Shown one piece after another: positions 7,930 to 34,657 of a DNA stretch of 35,140 nt. The translations under genes and the position numbers were made by a program. Location: positions 1-35,140 of the IMG/VR virus record IMGVR_UViG_3300025828_000075; one strand, given 5' to 3'. Positions within the stretch are counted from its first letter, which is position 1; each line of letters begins with the position of its first letter. The notes beneath the pieces are model-generated. The model was not told where the DNA came from. It ran no database searches and saw only the letters and a list, made by a program, of their open reading frames with translations. The DNA is from a virus.

Positions 7930-8237
7930 GCAAGCTGCTTGAGACAAGGTTGCCGTTTTCTCAAGGCGATTCTGTCAGTTCGGACACCTTCAACCGGCTG
8001 GTTCGTATCTTAGAATTGAACCTTGGGTCGGTTGATTTCACGATATCTCCGCACTTTAACGCGACTGAAATCAGTCAGCTTCAGTTTGCAACAGGTAGTA
8101 TAATCTTCAATACTACTAACCAAATACACCAAGCGTTTGACGGTAATAGTTTTAGAGACCTCTATAGCCATCAAACTTATCCAACGGGACTAGCGATTAC
8201 CGCTGGCGTTGGGGCTGTCACTGTGAGTACACCGTAA
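7926..8237 (+). CDS. Small tail protein ending in one fibre-repeat motif
   Basis: This 103-residue protein overlaps the hub gene by 4 bases (ATGA). The N-terminal ~80 residues (FSQGDSVSSDTFNRLVRILE, then a FATGSIIFNTTNQIHQAFDG beta segment) look like a small fibre-base or joining module. The last ~16 residues, TGLAITAGVGAVTVSTP, match one unit of the repeat array in the fibre protein at 33875-34657. It may be a truncated fibre relative or share a binding module. The stop TAA overlaps the next ATG. Confidence 0.6.
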   Translation: MSKLLETRLPFSQGDSVSSDTFNRLVRILELNLGSVDFTISPHFNATEISQLQFATGSIIFNTTNQIHQAFDGNSFRDLYSHQTYPTGLAITAGVGAVTVSTP

Positions 8238-10381
8238 TGGATGCAATGCTACAGAATCGAATTCAAAACCTGATTGGCGGAGATATGCCAATGGGTGTTG
8301 AGCAATACGCAGAGGGGGGTGAAGTTGATATGCCCGGCCCTAATTCTGGCTTTGAGACAGACTTGCTAGAAGGCGCTGTTGAGGGTCTTGATGAATCGGA
8401 AAGCATGGGGATGGGAATTCCTAGCATGGCCCCGTCTGAAAACCCAAACCAAGATTTAGAATCCGCGATTAGCGAGTTGATGATGGCTCGCGGTCAAACC
8501 GACGATGAAGGCGAAATATCATATATCGACGGCTTGATAGGCGCTGCCGAAGTTGGTGCCAACGCGCCTATGGCAGACCTTGCTATGGAGCTTTCTCAGG
8601 CTGGTCGAGGTGGTGATGTCACGTTAGCGCATCTTCGTAACGGCGAAATCGTTTTGCCACCAGAGTCAATGGATGATCCAGCGTTTGAGTCTGCTGTTGA
8701 GAAGCGGCTTATCGAGCTAGACATAGATCCGCAAGCAGCGGTTGTTGGTGCTGGTATCGCAAGCCTCAACCCAATTACTGGGTTAGAAGAGTTTGGTTGG
8801 TTCAAAAAGACTTGGAAAAGCGTCAAGAAGGTTGCAAAGAAGGTCATTAAGCCGCTTGCAAAGGTGGCTCAGTTTATACCCGGCCCTTGGCAACCGATAG
8901 CGGCGCTGGCAGATAAAGCCTTTACTGTTTATGACGTGGCTAAAGGCAGGGCAAGCCCATTGGCCTTGGCTACCGTAGCTGGCCCATTGGCGACTGGCGG
9001 GAGCTTTACCAAAAACATTGGGGATATCACCAAAGCTGGAAGCGGAAGCTTTTTGGGCGGAATTGGCAAGGGTCTAACAGGAACCGCTGGAAGCCTGAGA
9101 GGTGGCATTGGCTCGTTATTCTCAAACCCCGCTCAAGCTTTGACCAAAGACTTGCCTAACTTACTCAAAACCGCAAACTATCAGGGGATGTCTCCAGCAG
9201 ATCGGACGGCTGATGCCGTTTCTCGTCTGCGTCAGCTAACACAAGATCCTAACGTAAATAATTTAGTTCAAGGTTTTCGCAAAGCTGGTATGACGCCTGT
9301 TCAGCAGATTCAAGCTTTACAAAAAGCTGGCGCTGGCGGCTCCATGTTCGGGAACATATTCGGCGGCCAAACGACGTTAGGCAACGTGTTGGGCGGAATT
9401 GGCGGGTTGGGCGGCCAACAACCCATGCCTTCCCAGCAATATCAAGTTCAGGCTGGAGACACGCTCTCTCAGATCGCTGCTGACAATGGTATTTCGCTTG
9501 ATTTGTTGATGGCTAATAACCCACATATTACCGATCCCAACATGATTGTTACGGGCCAGATGTTAAGGCTTCCCGGCGGAACTATAACCGTTGGCGCTGG
9601 CGGGACTGGCGGGACTGGTGGTATTGGCGGCATTTTTAGCGGAGGCGGAGCTGACGGGGTTGGTAATTACGGCGTTATCGGTGATGTCCTTGGAGGGTTG
9701 ACGGACAAGCTTGGCCTGACCAATTACGGCGGGACAGCGGGAACAGGAGCCTCTGGGTCTCGCGGACTAGGCGGCTTGGGAACACTGGGCGCTATCGGCG
9801 CTGCTGGTTTGCTTGGCAAGCTGGCTTATGACGAAGCCAAGAACCGAAAAGGCGTGGCCCTTACCCCGCTCACTCAAGAGGGATCAACTGGCCGATACAA
9901 CATCGAAGCCGAAATTGCACGGCGCACGGGTCAGCCTGCACCTAACCCTGTTGAGTACGGTTTGTTGCCAACGGGAACAATACCCACACTAAGTGGTGGT
10001 AGACCAACCCCAAGAGCCGAAGAAACACAGCAGCCAGTAATGACCGCACGGTATGGCGGCGCTGTCATGCCGATGGCTTACGCCAAGGGCGGTAACGTAG
10101 CCACAGAAGACTTTGAGCGCATGAACGGTGGCATCAACGGCGAGGGCACAGAAACCAGTGACGATGTGCCTGCCATGCTGTCAGACGGCGAGTTTGTCAT
10201 GACAGGTCAAGCAGTACGAGGTGCTGGCGCTTTTGACTTGTCCAAGGGTAAAGGCGGTATCATCACGCTGACACCAAACGGCGGCGAAAGCAGAGAAGGC
10301 GGCACAGCCTTGATGTATGAGATGATGGATTTGTTCGCTGAGTTTGCAGATAAGCCTAAATCAAAGAGGGCAGCGGCATGA
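8237..10381 (+). CDS. Large internal virion protein with LysM domain
   Basis: This 714-residue protein has several layers. The acidic N-terminus carries YAEGGEVDMPGP. A basic amphipathic segment (WFKKTWKSVKKVAKKVIKPL) starts near residue 190, followed by hydrophobic Ala/Gly-rich stretches of the kind seen in membrane-active ejection proteins. A LysM domain (QYQVQAGDTLSQIAADNG, ending MLRLPG) lies at about residues 402-447 and would bind peptidoglycan. The C-terminus carries AYAKGGNVATEDF and AMLSDGEFVMTGQAV, a motif frequent in marine phage internal proteins. No hydrolase motif is visible, so it probably anchors at the cell wall during DNA delivery rather than cutting it. Overlaps: TAATG upstream, ATGA downstream. 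Confidence 0.68.
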   Translation: MDAMLQNRIQNLIGGDMPMGVEQYAEGGEVDMPGPNSGFETDLLEGAVEGLDESESMGMGIPSMAPSENPNQDLESAISELMMARGQTDDEGEISYIDGLIGAAEVGANAPMADLAMELSQAGRGGDVTLAHLRNGEIVLPPESMDDPAFESAVEKRLIELDIDPQAAVVGAGIASLNPITGLEEFGWFKKTWKSVKKVAKKVIKPLAKVAQFIPGPWQPIAALADKAFTVYDVAKGRASPLALATVAGPLATGGSFTKNIGDITKAGSGSFLGGIGKGLTGTAGSLRGGIGSLFSNPAQALTKDLPNLLKTANYQGMSPADRTADAVSRLRQLTQDPNVNNLVQGFRKAGMTPVQQIQALQKAGAGGSMFGNIFGGQTTLGNVLGGIGGLGGQQPMPSQQYQVQAGDTLSQIAADNGISLDLLMANNPHITDPNMIVTGQMLRLPGGTITVGAGGTGGTGGIGGIFSGGGADGVGNYGVIGDVLGGLTDKLGLTNYGGTAGTGASGSRGLGGLGTLGAIGAAGLLGKLAYDEAKNRKGVALTPLTQEGSTGRYNIEAEIARRTGQPAPNPVEYGLLPTGTIPTLSGGRPTPRAEETQQPVMTARYGGAVMPMAYAKGGNVATEDFERMNGGINGEGTETSDDVPAMLSDGEFVMTGQAVRGAGAFDLSKGKGGIITLTPNGGESREGGTALMYEMMDLFAEFADKPKSKRAAA

Positions 10382-23457: not shown

Positions 23458-23972
23458 AGCGCAAGCCGGGTAGACCGAAAAAAGAGCGCAAGCAGCTAGT
23501 GGAGACGCCAAAGGCTTTCCTTGCAGATGAAGAGGCTGGCATCACAGACATGCAAGCGGCTTTCGTGTGGCACTACACGGAAGGCGCGTGTGGGCAGACG
23601 GAAGCAGCGCGGAGAGCAGGGTTCTCGTTTCCTGCGAGCGCAGCGACCAAGATGCTCAACGGCAACGACTTCCCAAAGGTCACGCGAGCGGTGCGGGTCA
23701 AGCAGGATGAGATGCGTGAGAAGTACGCGATCACACCGCAGAAGACGGGAGCAATGCTGTGGAAAATAGCCGAGACTTCATTCGAGACGGGAGCGTACAA
23801 CGCTGCGGTTAGCGCAGTGAAAGAGTTGAACCAGCTCGCTGGCCTCACGATCCACCGCAGTCAGAACCTGAACATCAACGCTGATTTGCAGAAGATGACG
23901 AAGGAAGACATCAAGCACCGGCTTAACGAGCTGCTGGGCGTGGACGGGGAGATGAGCGACAAAGACTACTAA
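23442..23972 (+). CDS. Terminase small subunit
   Basis: This 176-residue protein starts at ATG 23442 after AAGGAGAGCGG. The basic N-terminus (RKPGRPKKERK) contains an AT-hook-like GRP. The core QAAFVWHYTEGACGQTEAAR, then RAGFSFPASAATKMLN, is the DNA-binding helix-turn-helix region typical of small terminase subunits. The C-terminal helices (TGAMLWKIAETSFETGAYNA, AVSAVKELNQLAGL) fit the oligomerisation part. It recognises the packaging site on concatemeric DNA. No large subunit follows; instead there is a 558-bp gene-free region. Confidence 0.75.
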   Translation: MADDVKRKPGRPKKERKQLVETPKAFLADEEAGITDMQAAFVWHYTEGACGQTEAARRAGFSFPASAATKMLNGNDFPKVTRAVRVKQDEMREKYAITPQKTGAMLWKIAETSFETGAYNAAVSAVKELNQLAGLTIHRSQNLNINADLQKMTKEDIKHRLNELLGVDGEMSDKDY

Positions 23973-24127: not shown

Positions 24128-24412
24128 TTACTTGTATTGGCCCGCCCTGCTCAGAGGCGACACACGTCTAGGCCGCTAGGCTGCGCGACCTTGGTTTTCT
24201 TCTCTCTGAGCGCCTGTACGCGCCTCTCAGCCGATTCCGTGCGCGGCAGTAGGAACCCTATAGGGTCGGAAAAAGCCTGAGAGATCGGCCTGTGGCGCGA
24301 CCCCCGTACACCCCTATATAGCGAGCGCGGCGAGCGCGATAGCTATAGCAAGGTTTGGCGCATTCAGTATTCAAAAATGTGTATGCCAAAAGGTAGGAAC
24401 CCTACCCACCCG

Positions 24413-24530: not shown

Positions 24531-24941
24531 ATGGCAGATTCAAGAAACAAGGGTGCGGCATTCGAGCGCGACATCGTGAAGCGCATCAATGCGTTTGCCG
24601 ATCAACACACCCTTGGTTTCCAGTGCAAGCGTAACCTCGACCAGTATCAAACCGCTGATCTTTGTGACATCCAGATTCCCAATCACGCCATCGAGTGCAA
24701 GGCGTACAAGTCTGGCTGGTGGTATGCACCAGCTTGGTGGGATCAGGTTTGTGCGGCTTGTGGCGACAACACGCCCGTTTTGATATACAAGTTCAACAAC
24801 AAAGCGATCAGGGTATGCCTGCCGCTTTACGCGATTAACGAAAATATGGCGCGAGATAACTCTCGGACAGCGGTTATCACTCTTGACGAGTGGTTTGATC
24901 TGTTGAAAGAGAGCTTTGACGGCCAACGAGAGGCTGCGTAA
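24531..24941 (+). CDS. Holliday-junction-resolvase-like PD-(D/E)XK nuclease
   Basis: This 136-residue protein starts at ATG 24531. It begins RNKGAAFERDIVKRIN (Glu12). Asp46 follows in TADLCDI and Glu55-Cys-Lys57 in AIECKAYK, the E...D...E-x-K pattern of Hjc-like resolvases and related phage endonucleases. WWYAPAWWDQV forms an aromatic patch. Such enzymes cut branched DNA to clear recombination intermediates before packaging. It lies next to the probable packaging region and, with the RecE-like and SSB genes, completes a recombination set. The ribosome-binding site is weak. The stop overlaps the next ATG. Confidence 0.65.
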   Translation: MADSRNKGAAFERDIVKRINAFADQHTLGFQCKRNLDQYQTADLCDIQIPNHAIECKAYKSGWWYAPAWWDQVCAACGDNTPVLIYKFNNKAIRVCLPLYAINENMARDNSRTAVITLDEWFDLLKESFDGQREAA

Positions 24942-25411
24942 TGGCTGGCATGGACGATATCGACATTTTTGACAACCCATTTCGTGACCCAGTGTACGAA
25001 GAGCTTGGTTTTACCTTCGATCCAGACCGAAACCAATACTTTGAGGTAATTCAAGACCCAGAGTATGGCGCTATGCGCCGATACTATTCGCCTAGAGACC
25101 GCGAACCTGTCCCTGAGTTGAGTGATGCGCGTATGGCTTTTGACGAACAGCTTCAACGAAAGGACATGGCACGGTATTTGTCCCAAATGGGCGCTCTGAA
25201 AGGTTTGGTAGGTGGCGTCTCCGATGCAGACATGATTCGTTTTGGCCGCTCAAAGCCTAAAACGATGAAAAGCAAAAAAATGCAAGGCGATAAAAAGCTG
25301 CAAGCCATGAAAATGGCTCGCCTGATGAATGATATTGGCTTTGACGCCAACGCTAACAGCGGTGGTGGTGTGGGAAGCTTAGAAATGGACTTGTTTAGGC
25401 GCATCCGATGA
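24941..25411 (+). CDS. Small protein sharing DDIDIF motif with giant ART protein
   Basis: This 156-residue protein begins MAGMDDIDIFDNPF, almost the same opening as the next gene (SSFDDIDIFGVPV). The middle part is helical and charged; residues ~105-130 are strongly basic (GRSKPKTMKSKKMQGDKK). No catalytic motif is seen. The TAATG start and ATGA end overlap both neighbours. The shared N-terminal motif suggests that both proteins are targeted to the same place, perhaps the capsid interior. That is inference. Confidence 0.6.
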   Translation: MAGMDDIDIFDNPFRDPVYEELGFTFDPDRNQYFEVIQDPEYGAMRRYYSPRDREPVPELSDARMAFDEQLQRKDMARYLSQMGALKGLVGGVSDADMIRFGRSKPKTMKSKKMQGDKKLQAMKMARLMNDIGFDANANSGGGVGSLEMDLFRRIR

Positions 25412-28400
25412 GCAGTTTTGATGATATCGACATATTCGGCGTTCCCGTCACTGGCTCGACCCGTGATCGTGATTTAGACCGTCTTGAGCAAATGGTTCGT
25501 GGTCGATACATCGATCCGCTTGAGCAGCAGGCGAAAGACATGGTCAAAAGTCAGGTTGTGCAGGCTCTTAGTGGTATGGAAGGGGTCACTGGAGCTGCGA
25601 TATCTCAAGTTGTTGCGCTTGCTGACTCTCAAGACCCGAATGACAAGCTGGTTTTTAATCAGATCGTGTCCCGTTTGAATTTGCCGGTGAATATCCGGCG
25701 GATGGGCGACGATTACGTGGCTTCAAAGCGTTTTGAGGGTGCTTTGGGCCGTGATTCGAGCGTTGACGTGATGGCTTATCGGCCAGACGAGGGTGAAACC
25801 CAGTACAGTTTGGGTGCTCAGAAGCGTTTTCCCAATCTTTTAGGCAGAAACTCGTCTGCTGACGTGTCAGCGCGGGTTTCTACGATGGGCGACCCTGAAA
25901 TACGAGCCAGATTTGAGAAAAGATTCGCTGACGGCGGTGAAGTTGACATTTTTGACGAGCCTGTAGGCCAAATGAACCGTCGCCAACAGCCCAAAGACGT
26001 GGCTCGCCCAACCCCAGCCCAACTTGCGAACATCGGGGCGGCTTTTGCAGACCCTTTGGGCATGATTGACATCACGGGTGAGTACCCAGAGTTCCCCGCA
26101 GCGGGTGTTTCCACTGCTGAGATGGTTATGGAAGGGCCAAGATCGCCTAGTTTGATGGAAAATTTGCGCGAAGGTAACTATGGGGCAGCGGCGCTTCAGG
26201 GTGTGGGGGTAATTCCCGTCGTTGGAGGCGCTGCGAGGGCCATTCGAGGCGTTGCGAAGGGCGCAGACCGTCTTGCGAAGGCTCAAAAGGCTGGTTTTGA
26301 CACCGATACGGTGTATTACCACGCGACGGATAAATTTGGAGACTCTGAGTCTGGGGAATTTGCCCAGTTGCGTCCTTCAGCAAAGGGAAAACTAGGGCCG
26401 GGTATTTATTTATCCCCTGATGCCAGTTACACGCAGAAATATATCCGTCGATCTTACAGATCAGATACGGATGAGCCGCCTTTCGGTGAGGGCGCTCGCA
26501 TTTTGCCGGTTTTTGTGCGCGGCAAGGTAGGTACTAGAGAAGATTTTGCTGAAGCTGTCGAGAGCATCAAGAAAAACGCATCAGACAAAACAGATTTTGC
26601 AGTGATCAAGCGTCAAGCCCAAGAAAAAATGGCAGACGATGGGTTTGCTGGGTTCAGGGTGCAGGATGAGCTTGTCATTTTCGACCCCAAAAACATCCGC
26701 TCGGTGAACGCTGAGTTTGAAGACCTTGATTCGCCTGAGTTGCTGAAGGCGGAAGGTGGAGAGATACGCAAGTTTAGCAAAGGCGGCATCCTCGACCTAA
26801 TCGTCAAAGGCGATTTCGACCCACGGTTTGACCCACGGGTAAAAGAGCAAGATATGCTCCGCAACCTAGAGGCTGAGATCATTGGCAGTAACCAGACTCA
26901 GCCGATGCCACGATTGGCGCTTTCAGAACTCGAAGGCGAGGACTTTGTCACCTCGATGACCGATAGAACCCGTGCAGGTGGTGATGTGAAAAGCATCAAC
27001 CGGGTGCAGTTAGTCGATCCTGTTTATTTGCCGGGTGGTCAGGACTTCATGTTCAACAACCCCAGTGCGGTTTGGGCATCAGCGGAAAAGCCGTCCCGTG
27101 AAATTTTGGAACTTGCGCGAGAGCTAAAGTCAGAATCTGGCAAAGACCCTCTTTACATACCTTGGCGTATGGCTCCAACAGGCGGTGATTTTTCTACGAC
27201 CACTGGTGAGCTGATGCTCGGCTATGCCGCAGCCAACATGACCAAGTCTACGAAGAAAGCTTTAGATAAAGCTATTCGAGACTACCGCACCAAAGGCAGT
27301 ATGGTTAAAGGCAATCGAGTTGGTGCTGGCAGAAAGATTGAGGGTTGGAAAGGCATAGATGACCCAAGCGCGGTTCAGGTTTGGCGCAACACCCCAGATG
27401 CAGTTCGCAAAGAGCTGATGAACATGATGGACGTTCAGTTCCGCAACAAGGGCGGTTTGTCTATCGGTGCTGCGCGATTGATCAATGCTGATCCCAAGCA
27501 GCTCACGGCCAGAGACGCAGGCATTCAGAACGTAGGCCGCATCTTTGCCGACATCGATATTTTTGACTCGGCTCACCCCTCGTACCCGTTTGCAGTGCCC
27601 GGTGGTGGCGTTGGTGTCCTAGAAAACGCAAGCGCGGCAACGGTGTTTGATTTGCTACCCAAGGCTAAGTTTGGTGATGCTCAGAAGAAGGTCAAAGACC
27701 CGGCCAATCCCACGGCGCAAGAGATTCGTGCGCTCCAGATGAAGCCGTATGGCGGCACGATCACTGAGGACATATTACGTCGCATGGAAGCTCGCGGCGT
27801 AGATGTGAACTCTATAGCGGGTCTTACGGGTGGCGCTTTGACGTTTACGCTGCTGTCGGCTGGCTTGGTTACGCCGCAAGAGGTTCAGGCTGGTGCTCTC
27901 AAAGAGTTTGCCGACAGTATGCGTAAAGCCGATGAGATGGGCTTCAAGACCGATCAAGTCCTATATCACGGCTCTACGTTTGATATCGAAGAGTTTGTGC
28001 CAAGCTCTGCTGGAGACAACGACTTTGGTCAAGGCACCTACTTGACCATCTCACCGAGTGACGCTTCCCGTAACTACGCAGGAGAAGGGCCAGACTTAAC
28101 CAACCGAATTAACACGCTTTCTGAAAGCATACAAGAAAGCTTGGAGGGCAGTTGGGGCTGGAATGCAGATTTTTGGGACAAGATAAACGACCCAGAAGTG
28201 TTTGCTAAGATCGAAAAACTAGTCGATGAGTTTGAGGAAAATCGTGACCGAGGGGTGCTTGAGGAAGCTGCTGACCTTGCAGCCAAGACAATTTTAAAAG
28301 GCCAGAACGAAGGTGTGATATATCCCGTCTTTGTGAACAATAAAGACTTTGCGGTTATCGGCGGTAAGAACAGAACGGTTATTCCTGTAGATACAGAGAA

Positions 28401-30192
28401 GTACATTATATGGGCCAAAGAAGAGATAGATCGAGACGATTTTCTTTACGAGGACGATTACGACGAAGCTGTACTTGAGTACGCTCAAGAACTCGAAAAC
28501 ACTGACTATGAAAGCCCGATTGCAGAACTTGCAGACAGTCTTAGAAGTGCAGGGGCGGGTGATGAAGTGGTCGGTCGGGTAATTGACTCAGCTATGGAAA
28601 GCGGTCAAATCGATTTGAGCGAGATGAATGATCTCATTCGCGGTTCTTACAACGAGGATTTTGACACTGGCGAGATGCTAAATAACGGCCAGATTGTGCA
28701 AGACGTATTGAAAGACCTTGGCTACAAGGGCGTTGTTGATAACACGGTTGGTCAAAGGTTTGCAGGCATGGGTGCAGGCAAAATGCACACCATCGTATTC
28801 CCCGGTAACGAAAACCTGATTCGCTCAATAAACGCTAAGTTTGACCCCGCAAAAGCTGACTCGCCCAACATACTTGCAAGCGCACCACCAATACTGGCTC
28901 CTATTGGCGGGGCGACGATTCTCGCTGCCACGGCTTTGTCGGCGCAAGAGGCTCAAGCGGGAGGCGTGGGGAGCCTCAAAACAGCTATAGACAAAAGTCG
29001 TGAACAAAGCCTCAAGCAAGCCAAAGAGCAGGGCTTTGACCTCGATAACGTCATGTATCACGCCAGCAAGCAAGACATCGATGAGTTCGTACCCGGTTAT
29101 GATGATGGGCTTGTCTTTCTGACTCCAAGCAAAGAATTTGCAAATAATTGGCTAGGCAAAGGCAGATTTAAAGAAAGGCAAGGCGGCACTGGTGCGATTG
29201 AAGGTGTGAAGGCAGAGATAAAGCAGCTCAGGAAAGAAGCAGATGAGATAATGGAATCGCTTCCAGACGATCAAGCCAGCCAGTATTACCGAGAAGTATT
29301 TGACCCTAAAAGAAGGCAGCTTGCCCGTGAAGAGCGAGAGGCCGACAGCGCCATCTACCCCGTAGTCACTAGGACTAAAAAGCCGTTTGTGCCGAGCAAA
29401 AATGTTGATGTCTTAGAGGAGTTGTACGGTAAAGAGTACCTAGACGCGCCATTCGGCAGCGGGTTTCCTACATACAGAGATGCCTTGAAGGACGGAAATT
29501 ATCTTTTGTATGAAAACAAACAGGTTGTAGATTTCTTGAAGAGCAAGGGCTACGACTCGATGTTCTTGAAAGAAAGCTCTGGCGCAGATGAGCCGTTCAC
29601 CACGCTGGCTGTTTTCGAGCCTTCCGATATTCGTTCAGTCAACGCCAAGTTTGATCCTAAAAAGAAAGGCTCCTCCAAGATACTGGCAAGCGCCCCGTTT
29701 GTCGCAGGACTAGGCGCTATGGGCGCTATGCAAGAAGCTAGGGCTGCGACATTGCAGGCAGAGGGTGCGCCGTTTGAGGTTGCGTTAGACGCTGCCACAG
29801 CGATAGGAGCACCGATTGTCGGCGGTTTGGCAGGGTTGGCTGAGTTCACGCAAGGCTTGCCACGCAGGATTGCAGGCGACCTCACGGGCGAAGAAGCTGC
29901 TGATCGGATCAGAGCTTTGCGTGAAGGCGTGAGTGGCGCGTTGAACTACGACCCAACCAGCGATATAGGTCGTGAGATGAGCCAGAAGGCACAGGAAGGT
30001 ATTGCTCAACTAGCAGCGCCGGTTGTGGAAAGACTAGAGCCTGTGGTTACGGGCGCTGTGGAGCAGATCACAGACCCGCAGAACGTGTCACCACTGGGTC
30101 TGCTTTATCAAGGTGGCAAGTATCTTTACGAAGACATCTTCGGTGAGCCAGAGCGAGAAGCGGCTAAGAGCGCAATGGACGTGGCTCTATAG
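25408..30192 (+). CDS. Giant polyvalent protein with three ADP-ribosyltransferase-like domains
   Basis: This is a 1594-residue protein. The N-terminal region carries DDIDIFGVPV and, at residues 172-186, RFADGGEVDIFDEP. ART domain 1 spans ~300-440: VYYH (His305), GIYLS (Tyr334), ELVIFDPKNIRS (Glu421). Residues ~505-775 form an unrecognised domain that includes ADIDIFD at 714-720. ART domain 2 (~848-1150) has VLYH (His854), GTYLT (Tyr878) and HTIVF, with His1127 where Glu is expected. ART domain 3 (~1210-1415) has MYH (His1218) and TLAVF, with Thr1399 at that place. Each ends in an [F/I]RS[VI]NAKF-type motif, and domains 2 and 3 follow Ala/Gly-rich hydrophobic stretches. Related phage 'polyvalent' proteins are injected with the DNA and modify host proteins. 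Only domain 1 keeps the full H-Y-E set. The end overlaps the convergent operon by 29 bases. Confidence 0.72.
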   Translation: MSSFDDIDIFGVPVTGSTRDRDLDRLEQMVRGRYIDPLEQQAKDMVKSQVVQALSGMEGVTGAAISQVVALADSQDPNDKLVFNQIVSRLNLPVNIRRMGDDYVASKRFEGALGRDSSVDVMAYRPDEGETQYSLGAQKRFPNLLGRNSSADVSARVSTMGDPEIRARFEKRFADGGEVDIFDEPVGQMNRRQQPKDVARPTPAQLANIGAAFADPLGMIDITGEYPEFPAAGVSTAEMVMEGPRSPSLMENLREGNYGAAALQGVGVIPVVGGAARAIRGVAKGADRLAKAQKAGFDTDTVYYHATDKFGDSESGEFAQLRPSAKGKLGPGIYLSPDASYTQKYIRRSYRSDTDEPPFGEGARILPVFVRGKVGTREDFAEAVESIKKNASDKTDFAVIKRQAQEKMADDGFAGFRVQDELVIFDPKNIRSVNAEFEDLDSPELLKAEGGEIRKFSKGGILDLIVKGDFDPRFDPRVKEQDMLRNLEAEIIGSNQTQPMPRLALSELEGEDFVTSMTDRTRAGGDVKSINRVQLVDPVYLPGGQDFMFNNPSAVWASAEKPSREILELARELKSESGKDPLYIPWRMAPTGGDFSTTTGELMLGYAAANMTKSTKKALDKAIRDYRTKGSMVKGNRVGAGRKIEGWKGIDDPSAVQVWRNTPDAVRKELMNMMDVQFRNKGGLSIGAARLINADPKQLTARDAGIQNVGRIFADIDIFDSAHPSYPFAVPGGGVGVLENASAATVFDLLPKAKFGDAQKKVKDPANPTAQEIRALQMKPYGGTITEDILRRMEARGVDVNSIAGLTGGALTFTLLSAGLVTPQEVQAGALKEFADSMRKADEMGFKTDQVLYHGSTFDIEEFVPSSAGDNDFGQGTYLTISPSDASRNYAGEGPDLTNRINTLSESIQESLEGSWGWNADFWDKINDPEVFAKIEKLVDEFEENRDRGVLEEAADLAAKTILKGQNEGVIYPVFVNNKDFAVIGGKNRTVIPVDTEKYIIWAKEEIDRDDFLYEDDYDEAVLEYAQELENTDYESPIAELADSLRSAGAGDEVVGRVIDSAMESGQIDLSEMNDLIRGSYNEDFDTGEMLNNGQIVQDVLKDLGYKGVVDNTVGQRFAGMGAGKMHTIVFPGNENLIRSINAKFDPAKADSPNILASAPPILAPIGGATILAATALSAQEAQAGGVGSLKTAIDKSREQSLKQAKEQGFDLDNVMYHASKQDIDEFVPGYDDGLVFLTPSKEFANNWLGKGRFKERQGGTGAIEGVKAEIKQLRKEADEIMESLPDDQASQYYREVFDPKRRQLAREEREADSAIYPVVTRTKKPFVPSKNVDVLEELYGKEYLDAPFGSGFPTYRDALKDGNYLLYENKQVVDFLKSKGYDSMFLKESSGADEPFTTLAVFEPSDIRSVNAKFDPKKKGSSKILASAPFVAGLGAMGAMQEARAATLQAEGAPFEVALDAATAIGAPIVGGLAGLAEFTQGLPRRIAGDLTGEEAADRIRALREGVSGALNYDPTSDIGREMSQKAQEGIAQLAAPVVERLEPVVTGAVEQITDPQNVSPLGLLYQGGKYLYEDIFGEPEREAAKSAMDVAL

Positions 30193-32681: not shown

Positions 32682-32911
32682 GCGCCCAAGCAAAGAAAGT
32701 TTTCTACAACCGAGTGCGCCGCACTTGCCTGAAGCACAACATCGACATCGTGTACGATGGGATGCCCAAGGCGGTGTACGGCGTCGAGTTGGTCAAAGAC
32801 GGTCAGGTGATGTTTGCTGACCGTAGTACCGATAACATGCCGTTGGACATAAACTGGCAGCGGCTGCATGAAGAGATGACTGACTATGGCTACAAAGGCG
32901 GTGTGAAATGA
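32678..32911 (+). CDS. Small basic hypothetical protein
   Basis: This 77-residue protein starts at ATG 32678 (ATGA overlap, GGAGG 8 bases upstream). It begins MSAQAKKVFYNRVRRTCLKH, basic and helical, followed by IDIVYDGMPKAVYGVELVKD. It has the size of a recombination directionality factor or regulator placed right before a recombinase, but no such motif is clear. It overlaps the recombinase start (ATGA). Confidence 0.58.
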   Translation: MSAQAKKVFYNRVRRTCLKHNIDIVYDGMPKAVYGVELVKDGQVMFADRSTDNMPLDINWQRLHEEMTDYGYKGGVK

Positions 32912-33699
32912 GCGGCAACCCACTGAAGCAAATCAACAATATCTACGGCTACGTCCGCGTATCTACAGACGAGCAGGTCAAGTCTGGCATCTCACTGGAG
33001 ACGCAGAAGCAGCAGATCAGTGAGTTTGTGCGTGAAAAGTACAACCGTGAGGTGACCGAGTTCTTTGCGGATGAAGGCATCTCTGGCACCCATGCGGTGC
33101 TAGATCGACCCGCTAGTCGCGACATGACCGACGTGATCGATGAGCATGACGTGGTGATCTGCACTCGGCTTGACCGATTGAGCCGCTCCAGCTCTGACCT
33201 TCTTGGCCTGATACCTGTTCTGCAAGACATTGGTATCACGCTGTACTTCTGCGAGCAGTTTGGCGAGATGCCGATTGTCTATCCAGATGCCGCCAAGTCT
33301 AAGGGCTTGGATGCCAAGTTTGATATGAACTCTATGGCCAATCAGATTATGCTTATGGTCTTGAGCGCGGTTGCTGAGATCGAACACGCGACCATCAAGG
33401 ATCGCTTTGCCGCAGGCAAGCTTGACTGGGCATCTCGCGGCTACGCCATTGGCGGATCTGCGCCATACGGCTTTCGTCATGTTGAGGTGAAGACGGGTAG
33501 TAAGACGCGCAAGTATCTCGAAGAGGTGCCTGAAGAACAGGCGGTTCTGAAATCAATCTATCGCCTTCATAAGCGTGGCCTTGGCGCTCGCAAGATTGCC
33601 AAGCAGGTAAACAGCTTGCACGACATACCTCCGCTCACGCATTCCAAGGTGCAGCGCATCCTTAGCCGCAAATTTCAGGGTGTCCCTAACGCTGCATAG
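32908..33699 (+). CDS. Serine recombinase (resolvase/invertase family)
   Basis: This 263-residue protein carries the catalytic domain of serine recombinases: YGYVRVST with nucleophile Ser19, the arginine motif TRLDRLSRS (residues 86-94), and the long helix VLSAVAEIEHATIKDRFAAG. A GGSAPYGFR turn and helical segments (GLGARKIAKQVNSL) make a short recombinase-type C-terminal DNA-binding part. It is larger than Hin/Gin invertases (~190) but far smaller than large phage integrases (450+). An unusual insert (EQFGEMPIVYPDAAKSKG) follows the core. It may act in DNA inversion, resolution or integration. Tail-fibre genes follow within 180 bp. Confidence 0.8.
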   Translation: MSGNPLKQINNIYGYVRVSTDEQVKSGISLETQKQQISEFVREKYNREVTEFFADEGISGTHAVLDRPASRDMTDVIDEHDVVICTRLDRLSRSSSDLLGLIPVLQDIGITLYFCEQFGEMPIVYPDAAKSKGLDAKFDMNSMANQIMLMVLSAVAEIEHATIKDRFAAGKLDWASRGYAIGGSAPYGFRHVEVKTGSKTRKYLEEVPEEQAVLKSIYRLHKRGLGARKIAKQVNSLHDIPPLTHSKVQRILSRKFQGVPNAA

Positions 33700-33731: not shown

Positions 33732-33875
33732 ATGACGGCTTTAGAGGATATTGAAGAGGCCATCGAGACGATGGAGGCTTCGCTTGCGACAGATTTCATG
33801 ACGAATGCGGTGCGCGACATCATGAGCACTGCGGTTCAGCGTCTGAAAGATGCCAAAGAAAAGTTGACTGACTGA
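33732..33875 (+). CDS. 47-residue helical protein before fibre gene
   Basis: ATG 33732 is preceded by TTGGAGGTCAC. The sequence (MTALEDIEEAIETMEASLAT, then FMTNAVRDIMSTAVQRLKDA) is fully helical with regular hydrophobic spacing, like a small coiled coil. Its TGA overlaps the ATG of the fibre-repeat gene (TGATG), so both are translated together. It could be a fibre chaperone or a base trimer. The family is not recognised. Confidence 0.6.
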   Translation: MTALEDIEEAIETMEASLATDFMTNAVRDIMSTAVQRLKDAKEKLTD

Positions 33876-34657
33876 TGTCTCAAGAAGGTTGGGGTCGCGG
33901 TACATGGGGGTTGGGTGCTTGGGGCACTCCGCTCTTTATTGATGTAACGCCTGATGGACAGCAGGCGACTGCTGCTGTGGGCGCGGTCACCATCGACGGT
34001 GAGGCAAATGTACCGCTCACTGGCTTAGCGATCACATCTGGCATCGGCGCGGTCACTGTCATTGCAGAGGCTAATGTCACCCCGACAGGTCAGGCGATCA
34101 CATCAGGCGTTGGCGCTGTTACGGTTGACGCGGAGGCGAATGTTCCCGTCACTGGCCAAGCAATCACATCGAGCGTCGGCTCTATCGAGGTCGTGGCTCG
34201 CGCTATCGTGCAGGTCACGGGTCAGTCGATCACGTCAGGACTCGGTGCGCCGACAGTCGATGCAGAGGCTAATGTTACGCTCACAGGTCAGGGCATTGCA
34301 TCTGGGCTAGGAACCGTAACAGCCAGAACGGTTAACAATGTTTTTGTTGACGGCCAGCAGATAAACTCGGCCATCGGTGACGTGAGCACGGTTGCGGGTG
34401 CCATTGTGCAGCTCACAGGCTTGTCAATGGTTGCAAGCGTCGGTGATATTCTGGTATGGGGTGAGATAGACACCAACCAAGACCCGTCCTACAATCCAAT
34501 CAGCACAACCCAATCTGCGGGTTATTCGGCTGTCGATACTAGCCAGTCCGCAGGGTATGGAGACATAAGCACAACTCAATCTGCGGGTTACTCGACTGTT
34601 GATACCAGTCAATCCGCAGGATACGAAGAAATCAAAGCAGGCCGAGATGCCGCATAA
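33875..34657 (+). CDS. Tail-fibre-like protein with eight 22-residue repeats
   Basis: This 260-residue protein opens with a Trp/Gly motif (EGWGRGTWGLGAWGTPLF) seen in many marine phage proteins. Residues ~27-202 consist of eight ~22-residue units built on TGQAITSGVGAVTVDAEANV, which would form a repeating beta structure. Residues ~205-250 hold four 11-residue repeats (ISTTQSAGYSA / VDTSQSAGYGD). No chaperone or enzyme domain is present. It probably forms part of a fibre or an appendage. One unit of the same repeat ends the protein at 7926-8237. Confidence 0.7.
   Translation: MSQEGWGRGTWGLGAWGTPLFIDVTPDGQQATAAVGAVTIDGEANVPLTGLAITSGIGAVTVIAEANVTPTGQAITSGVGAVTVDAEANVPVTGQAITSSVGSIEVVARAIVQVTGQSITSGLGAPTVDAEANVTLTGQGIASGLGTVTARTVNNVFVDGQQINSAIGDVSTVAGAIVQLTGLSMVASVGDILVWGEIDTNQDPSYNPISTTQSAGYSAVDTSQSAGYGDISTTQSAGYSTVDTSQSAGYEEIKAGRDAA

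Follow-up and report, generated by a model that had tools for sequence, protein, structure and literature searches.

A 1,594-residue phage protein with three ADP-ribosyltransferase (ART)-like domains appears, from comparison with its relatives, to be a modular and quickly changing chain in which conserved landmarks bound exchangeable cassettes. It is probably a modular multi-effector (polyvalent) cargo protein that is carried in the virion of a marine phage with an SU10-like portal and adaptors, and whose effector units behave as exchangeable cartridges. The gene was identified by translation as a stop-free reading frame on the plus strand of the window, by which we mean the whole 35,140-nt stretch of DNA analyzed here. 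Together with a small gene upstream, it is laid out as follows (L numbers denote the relatives compared):

24941..25411, + strand: small upstream gene, 156 aa, starting MAGMDDIDIF; 4-base overlap with the start of the three-ART gene
25408..30192, + strand: whole ORF, 1594 aa, in the order tag, NT, linker, ART1, MID, ART2, ART3, CT
25420..25437, + strand: DDIDIF tag at the N-terminus (aa 5-10), which doubles as a recombination joint among relatives
25438..25947, + strand: NT module (aa 11-180), present in some relatives and absent from others
25933..25953, + strand: second joint, GGEVDIF (aa 176-182), the attachment point of module DNP in L148
25966..26271, + strand: linker (aa 187-288) with a hydrophobic ALQGVGVIPVVGG segment, preceding ART1
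26272..26721, + strand: ART1 (aa 289-438), with H305, Y334 and D420-E421
26320..26322, + strand: left joint of the ART1 body exchange, the catalytic His305 codon, where identity ends in relatives
26679..26766, + strand: right joint of the ART1 body exchange, FDPKNIRSVNAEF...LLKAEGGEI; L016 is 100% identical here and unrelated just upstream
26779..27897, + strand: MID (aa 458-830), a conserved domain without a Pfam family
27934..28845, + strand: ART2 (aa 843-1146), with H854, Y878 and H1127 replacing Glu
28819..28886, + strand: ART2 exit joint, IRSINAKFDP..NILASAP, with 75% DNA likeness to the ART3 exit joint
29017..29655, + strand: ART3 (aa 1204-1416), with H1218, F1237 replacing Tyr and T1399 replacing Glu
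29629..29696, + strand: ART3 exit joint, IRSVNAKFDP..KILASAP, from comparison with relatives
29692..30189, + strand: CT module (aa 1429-1594), beginning hydrophobic

The three domains were assigned with sequence profiles. The Pfam family ART-PolyVal (PF18760) matched three stretches of the protein (whole-protein E = 5.9e-15, 56.7 bits against a curated cut-off of 31.2), and ART-PolyVal and DUF3990 were the only families reported. Searched singly, all three segments still matched PF18760, with E values of 8e-4, 9e-6 and 8e-7 for ART1, ART2 and ART3 and scores of 20.6, 26.9 and 30.3 bits, each below the cut-off. An earlier sequence-only reading had proposed three ART-like domains from a repeated series of landmarks and had named profile matches to one segment alone as a possible refutation, an outcome that did not occur. 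Both the domains and the series were borne out, the latter with small corrections on translation: ART1 carries GFDTDTVYYH (aa 296-305), GIYL, PVFV and VIFDPKNIRSVNAEF; ART2 carries GFKTDQVLYH, GTYL, PVFV and IVFPGNENLIRSINAKF; and ART3 carries GFDLDNVMYH, GLVFL (F for Y), PVVT and AVFEPSDIRSVNAKF. The wording of the consensus needed amendment, as the first Asp is replaced in ART2 (GFKTDQVLYH), ART1 ends in NAEF and ART3 has VFL. The Ala/Gly-rich hydrophobic links described before ART2 (~aa 812-835) and ART3 (~aa 1160-1190) are present, and comparable links also precede ART1 (aa 262-280) and follow ART3. No ART1 relatives were found in cellular genomes with the sequence patterns used, PDB sequence searches with ART1 returned weak ZAP/PARP matches at most, and PADLOC gave a single weak match, at the start of ART2.

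All three domains begin with a His-type YH, and the R-S-E site of the T4 Alt/VIP2 ARTs was found in none of them. ARTs of phage polyvalent proteins have been described as H-Y-D (PMC5512222). ART1 has a complete H-Y-E set, with His in strand 1 (H305), Tyr in strand 2 (Y334) and an acidic residue in strand 5 (E421, part of the acidic pair D420-E421), and this set hardly varies within the ART1 family, the Glu being conserved in almost every member even though the phages differ widely. The H-Y-[D/E] triad, which Iyer et al. (2017) describe for the Tox-ART-HYD2 clade, is incomplete in the other two domains: ART2 is H-Y-H (H854, Y878 and, at the acidic position, H1127) and ART3 is H-F-T (H1218, F1237, T1399). 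We therefore qualify the earlier suggestion of a multi-target effector, since the canonical H-Y-E is kept by ART1 only. ART1 is likely to be catalytically active, and ART2 or ART3 less likely than ART1.

There is a sizeable chance, somewhat short of even, that ART1 is the sole enzyme and that ART2 and ART3 are dead folds that bind targets, NAD or ADP-ribose or take part in assembly. The variant residues are fixed in their families (the His, Phe and Thr of ART3 in nearly all members), yet the domains are under purifying selection (window versus L004, omega = 0.18 for ART1, 0.20 for ART2 and 0.11 for ART3, compared with 0.08 for MID). Non-canonical sets can nonetheless work, and because the phage ART AcrIF11 functions with H-F-H-D (PMC12421852), sequence by itself does not justify calling ART2 and ART3 dead; in addition, wider relatives of ART2 retain an E or Q beside the conserved His. 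Loss of activity in these two domains would be compatible with a virion-carried cargo protein in everything except the term 'multi-enzyme'.

Structure models, suggested earlier as a check on the fold, gave tentative signs of an ART fold, stronger for ART1 than for the other two domains. The model of aa 281-830 (ART1 plus MID; 68 sequences, pLDDT 78.7) matched solved PARP domains weakly (tankyrase 2, E = 0.14 or worse, probability up to 0.85) and gave strong matches to viral models of proteins annotated as PolyVal ADP-ribosyltransferase. Its top PDB match was a pre-ejectosome chain from cyanophage A4 (PDB 9K3A, chain B; E = 1.3e-3, probability 1.0) with a TM-score of only 0.17; we treat this as a lead that concerns the whole ART1 plus MID model and is not tied to either domain. 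Among the matches of the same model, and of interest for MID, were weak ones to YTH/EVE-type folds (probability 0.14 or less). The ART2 plus ART3 model was of low confidence (pLDDT 67) and its top match, AcrIF11 (PDB 6KYF), was weak (probability 0.41), so the proposed ART fold of these two domains rests on sequence profiles.

The longer contig of L043 encodes the large terminase subunit (TerL) together with an SU10-type portal and a major capsid protein (PHROGs, Pfam), and the window includes genes for two SU10-type adaptors, a serine recombinase and a primase of the VapE type. A PF03237 terminase search of the relatives returned no matches; TerL was found by PHROGs and Pfam. With several domains in one chain and portal-terminase packaging in the phage (from the L043 genes), the protein has two features of a polyvalent protein. 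Based on the tail hub protein, the closest named phage is DSL-LC04 (39% identity), and the three-ART protein was absent from the named phages in the collection save for weak single-domain matches. Adjoining the serine recombinase gene (32908-33699), we also observed a gene for a protein of VTGQAITSGVGAVTVDAEANV-type repeats (33875-34657), with internal DNA repeats.

Virion packaging and injection of the three-ART protein seem likely to us. The protein would most likely be made late in infection, be loaded into the virion and then enter the cell together with the DNA, where ART1, and perhaps ART2 and ART3, would transfer ADP-ribose from NAD+ onto host macromolecules while the other modules of the chain act alongside. 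In favor of this cargo reading, many phage ARTs are located in packaging contexts according to a published analysis of gene context (PMC9503650), Octadecabacter virus 2 has terminase and tail tubular genes on either side of its ART1 relative, and the A4 pre-ejectosome is the top PDB match of the ART1 plus MID model. Against it, the A4 match is weak (TM-score 0.17), ART2 and ART3 have neither canonical catalytic residues nor a confident model, and the gene comes after the TerS and nuclease genes, outside the tail and ejection genes.

That position, which follows the primase, TerS and nuclease genes and is separated by ~9 kb from those for tail and ejection, would also suit an unpackaged host-takeover enzyme made in the infected cell, similar to T4 ModA/ModB, with DDIDIF serving as flexible linkers or cleavage sites, and any packaging signal of the three-ART protein is putative. 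We consider such an enzyme unlikely, given that published ART polyvalent proteins are linked to packaging contexts, that the Octadecabacter virus 2 relative sits between terminase and tail genes and, as a weak point, that [FY]A.GG.V peptides are common to the three-ART protein and probable virion proteins at 8237-10381. Peptides of this type (QYAEGGEV, AYAKGGNV, RFADGGEV) recur at 8237-10381 and 1689-2240 (probable virion proteins) and within 25408-30192.

As to how three ARTs came to lie in one chain, a 91-sequence tree of the ARTs in these phages resolved ART2 and ART3 into one clade each (100/99 support), and ART1 and an alternative, ART1b, were also separate at lower support. The ART1, ART2 and ART3 clades each include members from the proteins of other phages, and other module orders occur (ART1-ART2 in L072-L075, ART3-ART1 in L077 and ART3 in slot 1 in L175). 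Tandem duplication within the protein, raised earlier as one possible origin of the set, would explain why the landmark order is the same in all three domains and why ART2 and ART3 have a common exit motif (IRSxNAKFDP..ILASAP, 75% DNA likeness), but pairwise likeness of the ARTs is limited to their ends, and the proposal is left unsupported by clades that are deep, separate and each represented in other phages and in other module orders. Recent internal duplication was rejected on this tree, and we regard a tandem origin as very improbable; ART1, ART2 and ART3 appear to have been brought together, not recently copied from one another.

Comparison of relatives revealed gain and loss of whole units. 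The full ART1-MID-ART2-ART3 chain is present in the window and five other contigs (those of L004, L051, L054, L055 and L118), while ART3 is missing from L003, L005 and L006, where the chain is joined at the common exit motif (IRSxNAKFDP...ILASAP), ART2 is missing from L007 and both are missing from L008. The ART3 exit of a relative matches the window at the ART2 exit joint (28819..28886).

In slot 1 it is the ART1 body itself that is replaced by another ART. The replacement begins at the codon of the catalytic His and ends at FDPKNIRS, and the flanking sequences are 88-100% identical. The window and L016 share 4,141 bp at 99.3% identity up to the His305 codon, after which L016 has a replacement body of ~565 bp encoding a different ART (Pfam E = 1e-12); identity returns at FDPKNIRS and continues for 88 bp at 100%, to the end of the contig. 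Because this right flank is so short, better cases are pairs with both flanks inside one contig, namely L059/L144 (1,842 bp at 97.7%, another body, 691 bp at 96.7%), L111/L043 (361 bp at 95.3%, another body, 3,228 bp at 95.4%) and L006/L004 (1,247 bp at 96.4%, another body, 2,222 bp at 88.3%). L004 and L121 additionally share 5,773 and 2,691 bp that reach to the His codon (97-99% identity). In the L004, L006 and L111 comparisons this codon is no more than a few bases away from the left joint, and identity to the window ends at 26323 in L016 and L006 and at 26321 in L040; in L059/L144 the alignment continues 27 bases beyond the His codon and the right identity returns 44 bases after the start of NPKDVRS. 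ART1b is present in eight contigs. Synonymous divergence between the window and L003 is unequal among modules of the same two phages (dS = 0.38 for ART2, 1.16 for MID and 2.05 for ART1), as expected under module exchange. Although every relative is metagenomic and the L016 flank stops after 88 bp at a contig end, it is scarcely credible that the mosaics are artifacts of metagenome assembly switching between strains, since ART1b recurs, the altered proteins remain in frame and three pairs have both flanks, hundreds to thousands of bases long, inside single contigs; these pairs led us to reject assembly chimeras as the only source of the swaps.

These joints suggest that unit swapping at fixed positions provides a fast-changing kit for manipulating the host bacterium. 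The effector set would be altered in the phage population by recombination at short conserved coding joints, namely the DDIDIF tag, the ART entry motif, whose last residue is the catalytic His, and the exit motif FDPKNIRSxNAxF...GG.

Units other than ARTs take part in the same arrangement. MID is present in at least 19 contigs (omega = 0.04-0.08 versus several relatives), often behind an ART in other phages, and yielded no Pfam match and no convincing PDB sequence match; it represents a conserved, unnamed domain family that accompanies ARTs. In L011 a PBECR5 RNase occupies the place of MID after the ART1 exit joint (the same module occurs in L052), which raised the idea that MID is a PBECR-type RNase; this was rejected by hhalign against the PBECR5-bearing module (probability 0.2%). 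A GNAT domain precedes ART1b in L040. As regards domains with disparate biochemical activities, a further trait of polyvalent proteins, the window protein contains ARTs and one unnamed domain (MID), to which relatives add PBECR5 or GNAT.

The DDIDIF tag opens both the three-ART protein and the product of the small upstream gene. In relatives it separates modules in connectors such as AEGGAIDINDIDIF or sits at the extreme C-terminus, and at least eight different sequences come after it. Its codons vary synonymously, which points to selection acting on the peptide. The small upstream gene (24941-25411) is missing or moved elsewhere in relatives: L014, L038, L039 and L041 lack it, with the junction falling within the tag, and L148 has the module of this gene (DNP) fused behind the NT module at the second DIF box. 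That DDIDIF directs virion loading or processing is a guess. The idea that it is a motif of phages in general was rejected, as the DIDIF pattern occurs only once or twice per record in 13 whole records; among family members in those records it is located at cargo genes, and a scan of the collection found unrelated internal matches in six stretches (L123, L125, L137, L139, L143 and L149). If our reading is right, the tag could serve to find more cargo genes in uncultured phages.

Other variable sites were observed near these genes. In L043 the ART1 protein has a DIDIF tail and is directly followed by a 928-aa gene (L043:6541-9327) that has no Pfam match and possibly encodes another cargo unit. 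Exactly at 24390/24391, L007, L011, L013 and L148 have an extra 793-867 bp that the window and others do not, and this insert holds a ~200-aa ORF in L011 and L148. At window positions 23965-23968, L004 (L004:7061-7561) and L006-type relatives have a 500-bp insert with a 168-aa ORF, whose L004 product resembles a small methyltransferase on reading of its sequence.

A more ambitious proposal is that these elements form a dedicated cartridge system, which we find doubtful when its parts are taken jointly. DDIDIF would be a functional cargo tag for virion loading or processing; its coding DNA and the entry and exit motifs of the ARTs would act jointly as a common recombination joint; several ART types, the PBECR RNase, GNAT and others would slot in frame into an injected chain; and the backbone would give the catalytic His and the cartridge the remaining active site.

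Much of this organization has precedents. Polyvalent proteins with one or several ARTs are described, including 12 in one P. aeruginosa prophage protein (PMC5512222), with the ARTs accompanied by further conflict domains such as GNAT and PBECR (Iyer et al. 2017, PMC5512222), and extensive mosaicism is described for polyvalent proteins of Helicobacter phages. The present protein resembles those of Iyer et al. (PF18760) in being a large phage protein with H-Y-acid type ARTs, and differs in that exchange is seen between near-identical genomes with joints near base level (His codon, FDPKNIRS), that DDIDIF punctuation recurs and that ART2 and ART3 are without an acidic residue at the usual position. 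T4 Alt, a head-packaged ART that enters the cell along with the DNA and modifies proteins of the host (PMC5512222), offers a similar delivery model but belongs to the R-S-E clade, whereas the present ARTs are H-Y-type and multi-domain. AcrIF11 (PDB 6KYF; PMC12421852), a diphtheria/PARP-type phage ART that inhibits type I-F CRISPR, has an acidic DE pair in a loop that resembles D420-E421 of ART1, but is small, single-domain and without a sequence match to the present protein. Recent domain shuffling documented in phage receptor-binding proteins and endolysins (PMC10684548) likewise exchanges whole domains between conserved flanks of one protein; the emphasis, in the accessible text of that study, is on proteins for receptor binding, lysis, neck passage and replication and not on ART effectors that are injected. 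Vibrio MARTX multi-effector proteins are also long chains whose effector modules are exchanged by within-gene recombination (PMC5555677), although as secreted bacterial proteins with animal-cell targets they may be compared in organization only.

Because multi-ART chains, polyvalent mosaicism and phage domain shuffling are all published, our headline finding is of a known kind. Its specific contribution is the map of cartridge joints together with the DDIDIF punctuation, for which we found no precedent in the accessible text of the literature searched. If the reading is right, phage effector repertoires turn over because near-identical genomes exchange whole catalytic bodies, with joints that can be mapped at nearly single-base precision, and how injected effectors follow changing hosts would become testable.
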